From: Lachnospiraceae bacterium
Lineage (GTDB): Bacteria > Bacillota > Clostridia > Lachnospirales > Lachnospiraceae
NCBI GenBank assembly: GCA_902363825.1
Contig: CABJBK010000006.1
Location: 1 to 64,000 of the forward strand
Reading direction: 5' to 3'
Length of the DNA stretch: 64,000 nt
This document shows, one piece after another, positions 21,677 through 28,246 of this stretch (the stretch's first letter is position 1; every line of letters begins with the position of its first letter). The notes beneath the pieces were generated by a model. It was not told the origin of the DNA. It was given only the letters and a program-made list of their open reading frames with translations, and did not search any database. The position numbers and the translations under genes are program-made.

Positions 21677-21705
21677 ATACTATCACATATCATTTTTCTT
21701 GGCAA
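21677..21705 (-). promoter_or_regulatory. Promoter of the T-box / aspS operon
   Basis: On the minus strand TTGCCA (21700-21705), 17-base spacer and TAGTAT (21677-21682). It overlaps the stop region of the upstream Cys-Ala-tail gene (ends 21690), so the two operons abut. Confidence 0.65.
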
Positions 21706-22649
21706 GAATTTTTTTCATAATTTAAAATCGCCTGTCTGACTTTTAACGTTTCAAGCCTGGTTCCGTAGAAATCTTTTCTCGCGCAGCCGGCTCTTCCTCC
21801 ACCGGCACATGCACAGGCACACGCGCAGGCACAGCCGCCTCCGCCGCCATGTCCTCCGGAACGATGGCTGCCCACATAAGTGCTTCCCATTCCCCGGTCA
21901 GCCGTATAATGATCTTTCCCTGCAACCCGTTTCCGGAAGATCAGTGCCAGGACGCAAATCAGTACCGGAACCGCAACCACAAGCGCGATCAGCACAACGT
22001 CTGTTGCCTGTCTTGCGCTCTTTGCGGCATCATCCTGCTCCGTAAATACCCCTGCCGGGTAATAAACTCTGATATAATAGCGGTCTCCCGGATCCAGGGC
22101 TGTCTCCCAGAAATAGTCATCTTTATCCTCCACCGCTTTATACGGAAGTGAATCCACCCCTGTTTTATCCCAGTAAACCGCCAGACGATCTACTGCAATC
22201 TCATCAAACCAGCCCGGGGTAAATTCATAAGTACGTCCCTCTCCCGCCATTTCATACATATGATGCTGATGAATGGAAAAATCAATGTCAACCACTTCAC
22301 CCGCGTAATATTTCCGGTCGAGATCCACCCGCACATAGTCCCCGCCGTCATAGCTCTTATACTTTGCGCTCTTTACGCTGTCACTGAGTGGACGCACATC
22401 CTCCACATATTCATTCGGGATGCCGATCTTTACCCAGGTAAGCGCGCCCTCACTCTCGTCATCCAGCACCTTCCACGCAATATGGTAGGTCATATACAAG
22501 GAACCATCTGATGCCGGTTTTATCTTTATCTCATAATCTTCGATCTCATCTAACGCATCCGAATATGCCATAACACGTTCTTTGGTTCCAAGCAGACAGA
22601 TCAAAACAAGTGCAAGCAATGCGCAGATTTTCCATGTGTATTTTCTCAT
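21690..22649 (-). CDS. Membrane protein with an alternating Cys-Ala C-terminal tail, partner of a radical SAM protein
   Basis: A 319-residue protein; function not known. Residues 1-28 form a signal peptide. Residues ~30-205 form an extracytoplasmic beta-rich domain resembling DUF2207 N-terminal regions (YEIKIKPASDGSLYMTYHI; low-confidence match). A membrane segment (VVLIALVVAVPVLICVLALI) lies at ~222-242. The cytoplasmic tail has GGHGGGGG, then five Cys alternating with Ala (residues 273-282, bases 21804-21833), GGGRAGC and a conserved-looking KDFYGTR. The Cys and Ala codons are mixed, so selection is on protein, not a DNA repeat. The start overlaps the radical SAM stop (ATGA). The tail looks like a target for modification by that enzyme; this is inference. 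Confidence 0.75.
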   Translation of the reverse strand: MRKYTWKICALLALVLICLLGTKERVMAYSDALDEIEDYEIKIKPASDGSLYMTYHIAWKVLDDESEGALTWVKIGIPNEYVEDVRPLSDSVKSAKYKSYDGGDYVRVDLDRKYYAGEVVDIDFSIHQHHMYEMAGEGRTYEFTPGWFDEIAVDRLAVYWDKTGVDSLPYKAVEDKDDYFWETALDPGDRYYIRVYYPAGVFTEQDDAAKSARQATDVVLIALVVAVPVLICVLALIFRKRVAGKDHYTADRGMGSTYVGSHRSGGHGGGGGCACACACACAGGGRAGCARKDFYGTRLETLKVRQAILNYEKNSCQEK

Positions 22650-24016
22650 CTCTTTTTTTCTCCCCTTTCCTTTAGCGGGCAGCTCTTTTTATTTTTCGAA
22701 GCGTATGCCCGGTGCCTTCTGCTCGCGGCACGGTTCCAGATCTTTTTAAAACTTTCCGTCCGCATATCTCCAAGCGGTTTTTCTTCCAGCCAGCTCTGAC
22801 ACGGTATGACCCTGCCATCGGGTGCGATCGCCATATTGCTCAGACACGCGCCGCAGGACGGCACCGAAAGTCCGATCGCGAGCAGTTTTTCTTCTGCGAT
22901 CCAACCCGGCGAGGTAAACGCGATCTCCATCCCGTTCGCATAGCAGTACGCCGCCGCGTCTTCTAAGATCCGATACAGTTCTTCCTCCGCAAGCTGCGTC
23001 CGCTCCGACTCCGCCTTTCTCGCGTTTCCGGTAATAATGAGCCCGGAGCAGGTCACATAGGTAACACCAAGCCCGTGTAGAAACGCGAGCGTATCCCGGT
23101 ATTCCCGGTTCTTCGTGCAAAGCGGCGTATTGATACTCAGATTAAGTCCCGCCGCAAGCGCGTTTTTGATTCCGTCCACCGTCTTTTTATAATTGTCCGC
23201 CCCGACCAGCTCATTATGTACCGCTTCTTTGTCCGAATAAAACGTCACCTGGACGCTGTCCAGCTCCGCTTCTTTCAAATCCGCGCAAAGCTCCGGCGAG
23301 AGCAGCACGCCGTTCGTGTTTAATCTTGTGACAAACCAGCGCGCCTCCTTTATCAGCTCACAGAGATCCGCCCGGAGTGTCGGTTCCCCGCCGGTAAACG
23401 TCAGCTGCGGGATCCTCGCCTTCCTGCAGGCGGCAATGATTTTTTTCCACTCTCCGGTCGAAAGCTCCGGCACCTCCGACAGCTTCTGATCCGCCGCGTA
23501 ACAGTGCAGGCATTTCTGATTGCAGTGCCATGCGCCGTTTACCGTCATTGCCGATACCATAAGATCCATCCGGTGCGGCGCGGTCATATTTTTCGCGTAC
23601 CCGGCAAGCGACAGCCCTCCGATCTCCACTTCCGGGATCTCACCGCGCGCCACTGTGCGGAATGTATCCGTGATCGCGAGCAGATCCTCTTTTAGCATCT
23701 CATCCGTTGCCTGCGGATACACTTTTTTTACCCCGGCGAAGGTGCGGTCCAGAATCCCTGCCAGATCCTCTTCGCTCATTTCTCCCGCTCCATGCGCGTT
23801 TACCGCATTGGCAAACTCCGTAAACAGGATCGCCCATGCCTCATTTAGCGGCAGCAGCTCCTGCCCGTTTAAGATCGCTATGGACGGCACCTTGCGAAAC
23901 GGCAGGAAACGCGGCGGCACCATATGGATTCGGATCACTTCCGAGCTGCCCGGATCCCATGTCATATGGATCACCGACCGCCAGTTTTTTCTCTCATATT
24001 GTTTTTCCCGTAACAT
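22646..24016 (-). CDS. Radical SAM protein with SPASM-like C-terminus
   Basis: A 456-residue radical SAM enzyme. The [4Fe-4S] motif CNQKCLHC is at residues 165-172, the SAM-binding TFTGGEPTLR near 204, and later strands (FVTRLNTNGVLL, SVQVTFYSDK) complete the barrel. Near the C-terminus CGACLSNMAIAPDGRVIPCQSW resembles the SPASM/twitch auxiliary-cluster region, with another Cys in KKSCPL. The N-terminal ~150 residues are unusual: an alpha-rich domain (LPLNEAWAILFTEFANAV) without a clear RRE. SPASM enzymes typically modify peptides at Cys or other side chains. The gene is sandwiched in a tight operon, nine bases from the upstream gene and overlapping the downstream Cys-Ala-tail gene by four. 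Start at 24016 follows agaggaaag. Confidence 0.87.
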   Translation of the reverse strand: MLREKQYERKNWRSVIHMTWDPGSSEVIRIHMVPPRFLPFRKVPSIAILNGQELLPLNEAWAILFTEFANAVNAHGAGEMSEEDLAGILDRTFAGVKKVYPQATDEMLKEDLLAITDTFRTVARGEIPEVEIGGLSLAGYAKNMTAPHRMDLMVSAMTVNGAWHCNQKCLHCYAADQKLSEVPELSTGEWKKIIAACRKARIPQLTFTGGEPTLRADLCELIKEARWFVTRLNTNGVLLSPELCADLKEAELDSVQVTFYSDKEAVHNELVGADNYKKTVDGIKNALAAGLNLSINTPLCTKNREYRDTLAFLHGLGVTYVTCSGLIITGNARKAESERTQLAEEELYRILEDAAAYCYANGMEIAFTSPGWIAEEKLLAIGLSVPSCGACLSNMAIAPDGRVIPCQSWLEEKPLGDMRTESFKKIWNRAASRRHRAYASKNKKSCPLKERGEKKR

Positions 24017-24025
24017 ATCTTTCCT

Positions 24026-24922
24026 CTATTCTCCCGCAAAAAGGATGATCATAAGCATGACAAATATCCAGAAACCCGTTTCGATCCAGAACACGATCCA
24101 GCCCATATACGGATTTCCCTGTACATGGCTCCAGCAGTCCGGCAGTTTTTTCTTTAAATCATCCCAAACTTTCTGTTCGAGTACCGCGTCCTTAAAAATA
24201 TAGTAAAGCGCAATACTTGCGATCGCGCCGACAACCGCCCCGCAGACCCCCGCCTGGCCAATACGTGTAATATCGGATCTGAGTCCCCAGAACACAAGCG
24301 TGGTGACCCAGAGGATCGCGCTGTGTATCCTGCGGTTCTTCCGGTAAAAATATTTCCGGTCCAGCACCCCGCAGCAGGAATAATAGGTTGGCATTTTTTC
24401 GTTCAGATACGATCTCAACCGCTTGTGAAAGTCATGGACATGATTCTTCGCCTTCTGGTTTCCGATCTCATACGGAAAGCAGAGTTTATCCCTCCCTTTT
24501 CCGATCTGAAAACAGGAATCTTTGTAGTAGTATTTTTCCTCGCACAGCAGCCCGTCGTAATAGCTGTACGGCAGCATCCTTGTTCCGCCAAAGAATAACT
24601 CCTGCTCGATCCCTTCCTGCCGCAGCCAGAAGCCAAGCATCTTTTTCCTTTTTAAGACGCGGCCGCACGGCCAGATCACATAGATCACGACTGCTATGCT
24701 AAAAAATGCCACCATGTTCCATCCTGCGGAATAAAACGCTCTCTCCTCCGCCGCGAGAAAAGCTTCGATCCCGATAAACGCGCAGATGAATCCCCAGATA
24801 AGTCTGCTTTTTCCCCTTCCCGCGAAGTAACGCTCGGAATATTTTGGCAGAAATCCCTCTGCTTCCCGCCTTTTTACTATCTCGTCTTTTTTGCTTTTTT
24901 CTTTTTCATTCTTTTTTCCCAT
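24026..24922 (-). CDS. Multi-spanning membrane protein of the radical SAM operon
   Basis: A 298-residue membrane protein that I do not recognise. The N-terminus is very Lys/Glu-rich (MGKKNEKEKSKKDEI). Hydrophobic segments lie at ~42-60, 66-85, 200-218, 222-245 and 270-292. A cytoplasmic-type middle domain (LRQEGIEQELFFGGTRMLPYSY, FPYEIGNQKAKNHVHDF) resembles the YcxB-like or PH-like domains of small membrane proteins. Several Cys are scattered in it, including a CC pair in YYSCCGVL. Start at 24922 was chosen for aaggaag upstream. It is the first gene of the three-gene operon with its own promoter, which suggests a shared function with the radical SAM protein and its putative target. Confidence 0.7.
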   Translation of the reverse strand: MGKKNEKEKSKKDEIVKRREAEGFLPKYSERYFAGRGKSRLIWGFICAFIGIEAFLAAEERAFYSAGWNMVAFFSIAVVIYVIWPCGRVLKRKKMLGFWLRQEGIEQELFFGGTRMLPYSYYDGLLCEEKYYYKDSCFQIGKGRDKLCFPYEIGNQKAKNHVHDFHKRLRSYLNEKMPTYYSCCGVLDRKYFYRKNRRIHSAILWVTTLVFWGLRSDITRIGQAGVCGAVVGAIASIALYYIFKDAVLEQKVWDDLKKKLPDCWSHVQGNPYMGWIVFWIETGFWIFVMLMIILFAGE

Positions 24923-26125: not shown

Positions 26126-26884
26126 TTATCCCCGGATCACGTCACTCATATCATAACGTCCCGCCGGCTTTCCATTTAAGAATTTCGCCGCTTCGATCGC
26201 GCCTTTTCCAAAGATGGCTCTCGAATATGCCGTATGCTTCACTTCGATCACTTCATCCATTCCGGCAAAGATGATCTCATGCTCACCGACAATACTGCCG
26301 CCACGGACCGCGGAAATGCCGATCTCATTTTTTTCTCTCTTCTTGCGCTCTTTCGTGCGGTCATATTTATATTCATATTCTCCACCCACTGCGTCGTTCA
26401 GACAGTCCGCAAGCGCAAGCGCAGTACCGCTCGGTGCGTCCAACTTCTGGTTATGGTGTTTTTCCACGATCTCCATATCAAAGCCTGCCGGTGCGAGGAT
26501 CTTTACGATCTTTGGCAGGATCTCAAGCAGCGTGTTGACGCCAAGTGACATGTTTGCAGACTTTAACACTGCCACTTTTTTGCTGCTCTCCTCCACTTTT
26601 TTTAACTGCTCTTCCGAAAGCCCGGTACTGCACAAAACCACCGGGATCTGACGCTTCACGCAATAATCAAGCAGGCCGTCCACTGCTGCCGCATTGGAGA
26701 AATCGATCACCGCATCTGCCTCGACCTCGCAGTCCTCGATCGAAGCGTAGACCGGATAATCGTTTTTGATCCCGTCATACTGATCGATCCCTGCCACGAT
26801 CTCAACCGTTTCATCCTGCTCTATGAGGCCCGTAATGACCTGCCCCATTCTTCCGTTACATCCGTTCATGATCACTTTTGTCAT
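26126..26884 (-). CDS. dapB: 4-hydroxy-tetrahydrodipicolinate reductase
   Basis: A 252-residue DapB, reducing the dapA product to tetrahydrodipicolinate with NAD(P)H in lysine/DAP synthesis. The nucleotide-binding N-terminus MTKVIMNGCNGRMGQV, the catalytic EIVEKHHNQKLDAPSGTAL and the C-terminal EVKHTAYSRAIFGKGA are clear. The ATG at 26884 is chosen, with aaaggtg nine bases upstream; the longer frame would need a GTG with no ribosome site. It lies 51 bases after dapA, in one operon under the lysine riboswitch. Confidence 0.95.
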   Translation of the reverse strand: MTKVIMNGCNGRMGQVITGLIEQDETVEIVAGIDQYDGIKNDYPVYASIEDCEVEADAVIDFSNAAAVDGLLDYCVKRQIPVVLCSTGLSEEQLKKVEESSKKVAVLKSANMSLGVNTLLEILPKIVKILAPAGFDMEIVEKHHNQKLDAPSGTALALADCLNDAVGGEYEYKYDRTKERKKREKNEIGISAVRGGSIVGEHEIIFAGMDEVIEVKHTAYSRAIFGKGAIEAAKFLNGKPAGRYDMSDVIRG

Positions 26885-26935
26885 TTTTTTATACACCTTT
26901 ATCTTTCCGGTTCTTCCCTGCCTGTTGCCAAATTC

Positions 26936-27826
26936 CTATGCCAGCTTTATGCCATACGCTTTCATGACCTCTGCTAACTTCTTCGCGTTTTCCTCTCCCA
27001 TTTCACAGAGTGGGGAACGCAGACCTCCGACATTCATTCCCATCAGGTTCATCGCCTTCTTTACCGGGATCGGATTGACCTCGGAGAAGAGCGCATCCAC
27101 AAGCGGAAGTGCCTCTCTTTGCAGTTTCATCGCCTTTTTGGTATCTCCTGCGAGATAGCTTGCCACCATATCATGCACTTTCTGCGGTGCCACATTGGAC
27201 CAGACAGAGATCACACCGATTCCTCCGATGGAAAGTAACGGAACAACCAGTCCGTCTTCTCCGGAGTACAGATCCAGTTTTCCGTCTGTCAGATACATGG
27301 TCTTGGATGCCTGCGCGACATTTCCGGTCGCTTCCTTTAAGCCCACGATATTTTCCTCATGTTCAAACAGGTACGCGGTTGTCTCCGGCAGCATGTTGCA
27401 TCCGGTTCTTCCCGGTACGTTGTACATGATGATCGGTGTCTTTACCGCCTGCGCGATCTGGGAATAATGTGAGATCAGTCCGTTCTGGGTCGCTTTGTTA
27501 TAGTACGGTGTTACCACGAGCAGGCCATCCACTCCTGCCTCTTCGGCTTCCTGGGAAAGCTGAATCGCTGTTTTTGTGCAGTTCGAACCGGTTCCCGCAA
27601 CAACCGGAACACGATGTTTGGTAAATTCCACTGCCGCACGGATCACCGCTGCGTGTTCCTCCATGGTAAGTGTCGATCCCTCGCCGGTCGTTCCTGCGAT
27701 CACGATACAGTCTGTACCGTTTGTGATCTGGTAATTGATGATCTCCTCAAGTTTTTCGTAATTCACATCCAGATTTTCCTTCATCGGTGTGACGATCGCA
27801 ACTCCTGCTCCTTTAAAAATAGCCAT
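26936..27826 (-). CDS. dapA: 4-hydroxy-tetrahydrodipicolinate synthase
   Basis: A 296-residue DapA aldolase, condensing pyruvate and aspartate semialdehyde in the first committed step to DAP and lysine. Motifs: AIFKGAGVAIVTPM at the N-terminus, VIAGTTGEGSTLTMEE near residue 44, MYNVPGRTGCNMLPET near 133, and the Schiff-base Lys in GLKEATGN near 162. The start at 27826 has aggagg upstream; a longer in-frame extension to 27898 would read into repeat B and is rejected. The leader has a lysine riboswitch, terminator and repeat B copy 1. Confidence 0.96.
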   Translation of the reverse strand: MAIFKGAGVAIVTPMKENLDVNYEKLEEIINYQITNGTDCIVIAGTTGEGSTLTMEEHAAVIRAAVEFTKHRVPVVAGTGSNCTKTAIQLSQEAEEAGVDGLLVVTPYYNKATQNGLISHYSQIAQAVKTPIIMYNVPGRTGCNMLPETTAYLFEHEENIVGLKEATGNVAQASKTMYLTDGKLDLYSGEDGLVVPLLSIGGIGVISVWSNVAPQKVHDMVASYLAGDTKKAMKLQREALPLVDALFSEVNPIPVKKAMNLMGMNVGGLRSPLCEMGEENAKKLAEVMKAYGIKLA

Positions 27827-27872
27827 AACATTTTCCTCCTGTATGTAATATATGGTAATTCTCTTTCTTATG

Positions 27873-28004
27873 AAATAAAGTGTGCGCTTACCGCACACTT
27901 TCGCGCGCGAGCGGTATGTTCAACATAAACTTCATCTCCGCGAGCTGCGCATCCCCGCGGAGCGTTTTTAAATCATAGGAAGGAATTTCCTATGGTTTGA
28001 AAAA
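27873..28004 (-). repeat. Repeat B, copy 1, in the dapA leader (132 bp)
   Basis: It matches 42093-42224 with only three differences in 132 bp, exactly 14,220 bp away and in the same orientation. It can form three hairpins: aagtgtgcg/cgcacactt, ctccgcg/cgcggag and a catagga/tcctatg stem. On the minus strand it has a frame of about 33 codons after a TAG, reading ...YDLKTLRGDAQLAEMKF... and ending RESVR-stop. It starts at the T-run of the riboswitch terminator and ends about 45 bases before dapA, so it is part of the dapA mRNA. No transposase is near. Confidence 0.85.
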
Positions 28005-28025: not shown

Positions 28026-28053
28026 AAAAGCTTCTTCTTGTATTACCCAAACC

Positions 28054-28225
28054 TCTGATAGCGCCCCATCCGTTGCCAGATGACAGTCAAATGGCTGTTC
28101 GCCAAGTGCCCAAGGAATATGCCTGTCAGGTAACATACCCTTTCGGCGTTCTCTCCTTTCACCCGTCGTCTCCTGTTCCTGCCACATCAGACCGGCTACT
28201 CATAGATCACGCAACCTCTATCTTC
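28054..28225 (-). ncRNA. Lysine riboswitch (L-box) aptamer upstream of dapA
   Basis: On the minus strand gatagaggttgcg at the 5' end pairs with the gcgctatc 3' end to close P1. Inside are the conserved tgagtag, gtgaaagg, cgccgaaagggt and ggcaacggatgggg elements of the L-box. Its length of about 170 bases is typical. Lysine binding should favour the terminator at 28000-28025 and turn off dapA-dapB. Confidence 0.93.
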
Positions 28226-28246
28226 ACATTTTTACTTGTTAAATTT

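Follow-up and report, generated by a model that had tools for sequence, protein, structure and literature searches.

What does a radical S-adenosylmethionine (rSAM) enzyme act on when its gene runs into that of a full-size membrane protein? Most known substrates of radical SAM thioether chemistry are small peptides and a few are proteins, and the question is raised by a locus in the first 64,000 nucleotides (hereafter, the window) of contig CABJBK010000006.1 of a Lachnospiraceae bacterium (assembly GCA_902363825.1). Here, an rSAM gene is followed by a gene whose membrane protein product ends in a tail of alternating cysteine and alanine residues, GGGGG-CACACACACA-GGGRAGC, which is encoded by mixed codons and continues into a short KDFY-containing stretch. 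We regard it as quite probable that this tail is the substrate of the rSAM enzyme, counting those rival explanations below in which the tail is likewise modified, and we assign a probability of about 0.62 to the narrower reading that the tail undergoes a covalent change that involves its cysteines and stays on the protein. An earlier note, made from the letters of the window alone, had proposed the tail of the full-size membrane protein as the likely target, and the linkage of the two genes, their co-occurrence across genomes, and the conservation of the tail support this proposal.

A scan of contigs with the rSAM protein returned 61 loci, 60 of which were clear relatives (48–57% identity), whereas the remaining one (L061) was a match of 37 residues. 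The names borne by some of the rSAM homologues fit an origin of the window in the chromosome of a Lachnospiraceae-type bacterium, and one of the loci with the pair, L023, belongs to the cultured commensal Gemmiger formicilis ATCC 27749. A homologue of the tail protein lay directly after the rSAM gene in all 59 of the 60 loci whose contig continues, and the tail was present in every locus that reached the end of the tail protein (55/55), the other four ending with the contig. The four-base overlap between the two genes, already claimed in the earlier note, was confirmed as an ATGA in the window, and in 57 of 58 related loci an in-frame start of the tail gene fell within −11 to +3 of the rSAM stop. 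The exception is L052, where the rSAM gene is frame-shifted; the apparent rSAM–tail fusion there was attributed to this shift, which lies inside the rSAM match, and was not used as evidence. In one genome (G208), the pair is divided between contigs, with a 137-aa tail-family fragment after the rSAM gene at the contig end and a tail protein on another contig. The distances among the rSAM proteins and among the tail proteins were correlated (r = 0.92, n = 53), as would also be expected from joint vertical inheritance alone.

When the neighbors of these loci were clustered, without being annotated, no other widely shared neighbor was found among the 25 largest clusters. The largest clusters besides the pair comprised 16, 12, 12, and 11 loci; several of them were, by eye, antisense shadows of the pair or its neighbors, and the rest occurred in narrow sets of related loci. 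Likewise, no widely shared open reading frame (ORF) with at least four cysteines, as expected of a small precursor peptide, was found from approximately 4.5 kb before to 2.5 kb after the core in a search of ATG-started ORFs of 15–91 aa. This search yielded 146 ORFs with at least four cysteines, and the most recurrent of them, in 11 Gemmiger/Faecalibacterium-type loci, lay approximately 3–4 kb before the core on the opposite strand and appeared by eye to be antisense readings of another gene, so that a hidden small peptide substrate was rejected. That neither another widely shared neighbor among these clusters nor a widely shared small cysteine-rich peptide was found favors the tail itself as the target.

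The conservation of the tail was read from the best 120 of the 1909 homologues of the tail protein, which are not a random sample and most of which are 35–50% identical to the protein of the window. The sequence CACACACAGGGRAGC was nearly invariant in 118 of these, and the other two (P0009 and P0010) end before the core. Among the 118 tail-bearing homologues, each position of C-A-C-A-C-A-C-A-G-G-G-R-A-G-C was at least 98% conserved, and in the stretch that follows, which we call the follower, a lysine occurred at +6 in 118/118 and a phenylalanine at +8 in 117/118. Of 62 sequences examined in the contig scan, 56 (55 of the 61 loci, plus the window) carry the 13-residue core CACACA(GG/SS)GRAGC, and the six sequences without it were either cut by a contig end or, in the case of L061, not a relative. 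These 56 sequences encode the core in 55 distinct DNA versions, which, together with the mixed codons, bears out the view that the pattern is kept at the protein level and rules out a DNA-level repeat as the origin of the tail. A Gly-rich stretch precedes the core, as do extra CASS/CAHSS modules in variable number, and in rare natural variants (P0012; G253) a phenylalanine or tyrosine replaces one tail cysteine. A distant clade (G322 and G331) has retained CACACACACACA, but there it is followed by GRVGCSERGYQ. The tail recurs with hardly a letter changed in genomes that bear the labels Lachnospiraceae, Oscillospiraceae, Gemmiger, and Bacilli, and in Atopobiaceae, judging from the name of one homologue. 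We also considered the tail as a module carried by other proteins, and rejected this: 10 tail-only pieces were obtained (E = 9e−20 to 4e−10), and in 250 genomes all were located at the family gene itself.

The two families were also sought across genomes in four draws searched with both profiles (rSAM at E-values of 1e−50 to 1e−80, tail family at 1e−8). In a class-level draw, the rSAM enzyme was found in 8 of 341 genomes and the tail family in the same 8, with the tail itself read in 7. In a family-level draw, the corresponding numbers were 22 and 23 of 250, and the tail motif was present in all 22 genomes with the enzyme; in the extra genome (G432), the homologue of the tail protein is distant, and both the Cys tail and the rSAM enzyme are absent. 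A second class-level draw placed both the enzyme and the tail family in the same 4 of 149 genomes (tails read in 4/4), and an order-level draw placed both in the same 2 of 197 (tails read in 2/2). Each draw includes a center genome chosen for having the pair, and the draws share some genomes; with the center genomes removed, the positives were 7/340, 21/249, 3/148, and 1/196, and Fisher's P for the first three draws was 1e−14, 1e−29, and 2e−6, respectively. A tail that is common without the enzyme, which the earlier note had named as the observation that would speak against the pairing, did not appear: no genome of this kind occurred in the draws of 341, 250, 149, and 197, within the sensitivity of this first look. 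The co-occurrence therefore appears strong, although it is not absolute, because the draws overlap and because in some searches the candidates scored per genome were capped (at 6 and 5 in the first class-level draw, at 6 and 9 in the family-level draw, and at 11 in one search of the order-level draw), so that an absence is likewise not absolute; joint vertical inheritance would also produce it.

The enzyme resembles in its predicted fold the maturases of ribosomally synthesized and post-translationally modified peptides (RiPPs). Its Pfam matches were Radical_SAM (E = 4e−21) and SPASM (E = 1e−10), and PF13186 was found in 27 of 27 members of the rSAM family. The CxxxCxxC motif described in the earlier note was recovered with all of its cysteines invariant. 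The SPASM-like character that the same note gave to the C-terminal cysteines was sustained in part: the Pfam match agrees with it, but since the conserved cysteines (C388, C406, and C446 invariant and C391 in at least 90% of 55 aligned sequences) suffice for one auxiliary cluster, we infer a twitch-like domain rather than a full SPASM domain. The best structural matches of the rSAM model in Foldseek were the RiPP maturases SkfB and SuiB, with CteB also among the closest. The note had overlooked two further elements, the conserved [AS]-x-K-[DNE]-F-Y stretch after the core and an N-terminal domain resembling the RiPP recognition element (RRE). The alignments with SkfB and three SuiB entries begin at residues 16–29 of the model, i.e., within this N-terminal domain, and the order of its strands and helices agrees with that described for SkfB (PMC6231123). 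No match to PF05402 was found in 27 rSAM members, and a sequence search of the PDB with the N-terminal domain had no relevant match (best E = 0.37).

The tail protein is predicted to be a single-pass protein with a cytosolic tail (Table 1), and its outer domain is conserved across the family. The protein of the window had no Pfam match at E ≤1 and matched none of the NCBIfam families, TIGR04222 included, at the same threshold. Weak matches to DUF2207 (PF09972) were obtained in 14 of 30 relatives of the tail protein (best E = 1.3e−4), and one listed homologue bears the DUF2207 name from its source. The DUF2207 membrane proteins may have a remotely related outer domain; the Cys-Ala tail and the rSAM partner set the present family apart from them.

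Table 1. Positions in the window of the gene pair, its parts, and the adjoining ORF
Feature	Position	Strand	Basis or detail
rSAM gene, proposed tail maturase	22646..24016	−	456 aa
RRE-like N-terminal domain, residues 16–123, strands then three helices	23648..23971	−	AlphaFold2 (AF2) secondary structure; SkfB/SuiB alignments begin inside
CxxxCxxC cluster motif, residues 165–172 (C165/C169/C172)	23501..23524	−	all three Cys invariant in 55 aligned sequences
Twitch-like C-terminal auxiliary-cluster region, residues 388–446 (C388, C391, C406, C446)	22679..22855	−	Pfam SPASM match and Cys conservation
ATGA overlap, rSAM stop/tail-gene start ATG	22646..22649	−	4 bases
Tail-bearing membrane protein, proposed substrate	21690..22649	−	319 aa; 1909 homologues at E ≤1e−3
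N-terminal hydrophobic segment (signal or anchor), residues 3–24	22578..22643	−	hydropathy; AF2 helix 2–20
Outer beta domain, residues 34–197, ribophorin I/M1-aminopeptidase N-domain fold, remotely DUF2207-like	22059..22550	−	predicted fold
Transmembrane helix, residues 214–242, basic residues on tail side	21924..22010	−	AF2 helix; charge −2 before, +3 after
Cys-Ala core CACACACACAGGGRAGC, residues 273–289, predicted cytosolic, disordered	21783..21833	−	AF2 confidence score (pLDDT) <50 over residues 252–297
Conserved follower, residues 290–319, [AS]-x-K-[DNE]-F-Y then helix 301–318	21693..21782	−	homologue conservation; AF2 helix
Upstream ORF (“first gene”), predicted membrane protein	24026..24922 (open to 25000)	−	

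On this basis, we propose that the pair may form a two-gene protein-modification cassette, consisting of an enzyme with an RRE-like domain, a radical SAM barrel, and a twitch-like auxiliary-cluster domain, and a membrane-protein partner. Acting from the cytosol, the enzyme would take as its substrate the Cys-Ala-Gly tail encoded by the overlapping downstream gene, and the KDFY follower, the RRE-like domain, or both would guide recognition. Alpha-hydrogens would be abstracted from tail residues, alanines among others, neighboring cysteine sulfurs would then close thioether bridges, and the laced tail, now compact, would remain part of the protein on the cytosolic side of the membrane. A thioether product claims about half of the likelihood that we give to the tail being the substrate at all. 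That the family represents a widespread class, in which a single-pass DUF2207/ribophorin-like protein has its cytosolic tail laced by an rSAM enzyme and keeps it permanently, whether thioether-bridged or otherwise modified at Cys/Ala, has in our estimate slightly less than an even chance. The protein may be a sensor and its tail may be crosslinked, as the earlier note had it, and one could guess at a role in envelope signaling or anchoring.

Several observations weigh against this proposal. The predicted cytosolic location of the tail was not favored by the charge around the helix in 27 of the 118 homologues. In the eighth genome of the first class-level draw (G247), the rSAM frame holds a stop and the sequence of the partner breaks off with the contig, within a Gly-rich tract. 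In G331 (L144, 1663–5953), the two genes are approximately 2.1 kb apart with intervening frames that look by eye like a mobile element, although both genes have been kept despite the split and the tail reads CACACACACACAVGGRVGCSERGYQ. In G253 (L077, 476–3784), the gene order differs, with two tandem tail proteins upstream of one rSAM gene; one of them reads CACACAYACACA, and the second has a tyrosine for one tail cysteine. As for the enzyme, the RRE fold is supported by only four structural alignments, and CteB, which itself has an RRE, aligns only from residue 142 of the model. An hhalign comparison of the N-terminal domain with PqqD sequences (28 of 30 PqqD loci used) gave a weak probability of 10.6%, with the third helix alone aligned, against 0.1–0.3% for the controls (the tail protein and three column shuffles). 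Furthermore, the rSAM protein reached no curated cut-off among the best 25 of the 64 NCBIfam families matched; its top score, to TIGR04055, was 101 bits against a cut-off of 500, and the remaining 39 families scored lower. In terms of chemistry, Ala12 of ruminococcin C1 (RumC1) is a thioether acceptor, whereas AlbA refuses alanine in place of its natural acceptors (both PMC8172795).

The main chemical rival is epimerization only, in which the alpha-carbons of alanine or other residues would be flipped to the D form with an enzyme cysteine as the hydrogen donor, a reaction described in PMC8326336, and the free cysteine thiols may bind a metal or cluster. Two more invariant barrel cysteines outside the cluster motifs, C300 and C323, are possible catalytic residues and would fit such an enzyme, which also counts against our proposal. 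However, EpeE ranked below SkfB, SuiB, anSME, and CteB in the structural matches, and epimerization leaves the need for a cysteine at every other residue unexplained, and we consider it unlikely. We hold it to be similarly improbable that the tail is an unmodified element that binds a metal or Fe-S cluster or donates electrons, with the rSAM enzyme as its client or acting elsewhere. Five alternating cysteines and one more could ligate metals, the auxiliary clusters require electrons, and the product is not known; on the other hand, no other widely shared neighbor among the 25 largest clusters offers itself as a target for such an enzyme, the fold of the rSAM protein is RiPP-maturase-like, and the one family member found without the enzyme is also without the tail.

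It is less likely still that the membrane protein serves as an outsized leader whose tail is modified and then released as a free RiPP. The core with its conserved follower does resemble a RiPP precursor, and a Gly-rich stretch lies before the core, but the same 25 largest neighbor clusters include no widely shared candidate for a protease or exporter, the outer domain has been conserved over the family, and the tail is predicted to lie in the cytosol. A tail that is modified through its cysteines and remains attached is the reading that we prefer.

Among characterized systems, QhpD, which is of the rSAM/SPASM type, introduces thioethers into the gamma subunit of quinohemoprotein amine dehydrogenase, a protein component and not a released peptide. 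Its target is a soluble, exported enzyme subunit with Asp/Glu acceptors, not the tail of a membrane protein. In general, the RiPP-type rSAM maturases (sactisynthases and ranthipeptide enzymes) share with the present enzyme the radical SAM core and an auxiliary-cluster domain, but they have a small precursor nearby, whereas the partner here is a full-size membrane protein. SkfB, the sactisynthase of the Bacillus subtilis sporulation killing factor, has an RRE/barrel/twitch plan; it acts on a small peptide, and its auxiliary ligands are CX33CXC, compared with C388/C391/C406/C446 here (PMC6231123). SuiB and CteB, which occupy Foldseek ranks 2–9 for the rSAM model, differ in having a SPASM domain with two auxiliary clusters (PMC6231123) and short peptide substrates, and the RRE of CteB lies outside the structural alignment. 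In the ruminococcin C sactipeptides, which are small antimicrobial peptides, a Cys-to-Ala alpha thioether is known (PMC8172795). The nearest published parallel that we found is the pairing of TIGR04222 with MNIO (DUF692) enzymes, in which the C-terminal Cys/Gly-rich tail of a full-size membrane protein was proposed as the target of a neighboring enzyme; there, however, the enzyme is of another class, a periplasmic location is predicted for the tail, and the family is mostly from Actinomycetota (PMC12452194). The link is also loose, the enzyme being absent from 490 of 1372 genomes (PMC12452194). No paper on the present pair was found among open PubMed Central papers, in which the letters GGGRAGC occurred once, inside a primer for the polymerase chain reaction.

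Of the surroundings of the pair in the window, the ORF upstream of the rSAM gene had been suggested as a membrane partner in the earlier note. This suggestion was not upheld: a homologue occurred in none of 60 related loci within the flanks, and a search of 5.8 billion proteins gave 3 homologues among 418 candidates, so that on sequence comparison the ORF is a local orphan outside the system. Further upstream, a lysine riboswitch (RF00168, 102 bits) was found at 28051–28228 on the minus strand, preceding dapA-like (26936–27898) and dapB-like (26126–26896) ORFs, which were named by eye without a family search. In another locus (L010, 8727–8750, minus strand), a hydrophobic stretch followed by SSCGCGCANC was seen once downstream of the pair; this resembles the FeoB-associated Cys-rich membrane proteins.

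Most likely, the pair represents a RiPP-type rSAM maturation aimed at a resident membrane protein. For such enzymes, the predicted target, which is the cytosolic tail of a membrane protein of full size, is unusual, and a pair of this small size lends itself to direct tests. If the proposal is true, RiPP-type chemistry reaches resident membrane proteins, and the family hints at a function in the envelope of gut bacteria that has yet to be explained.

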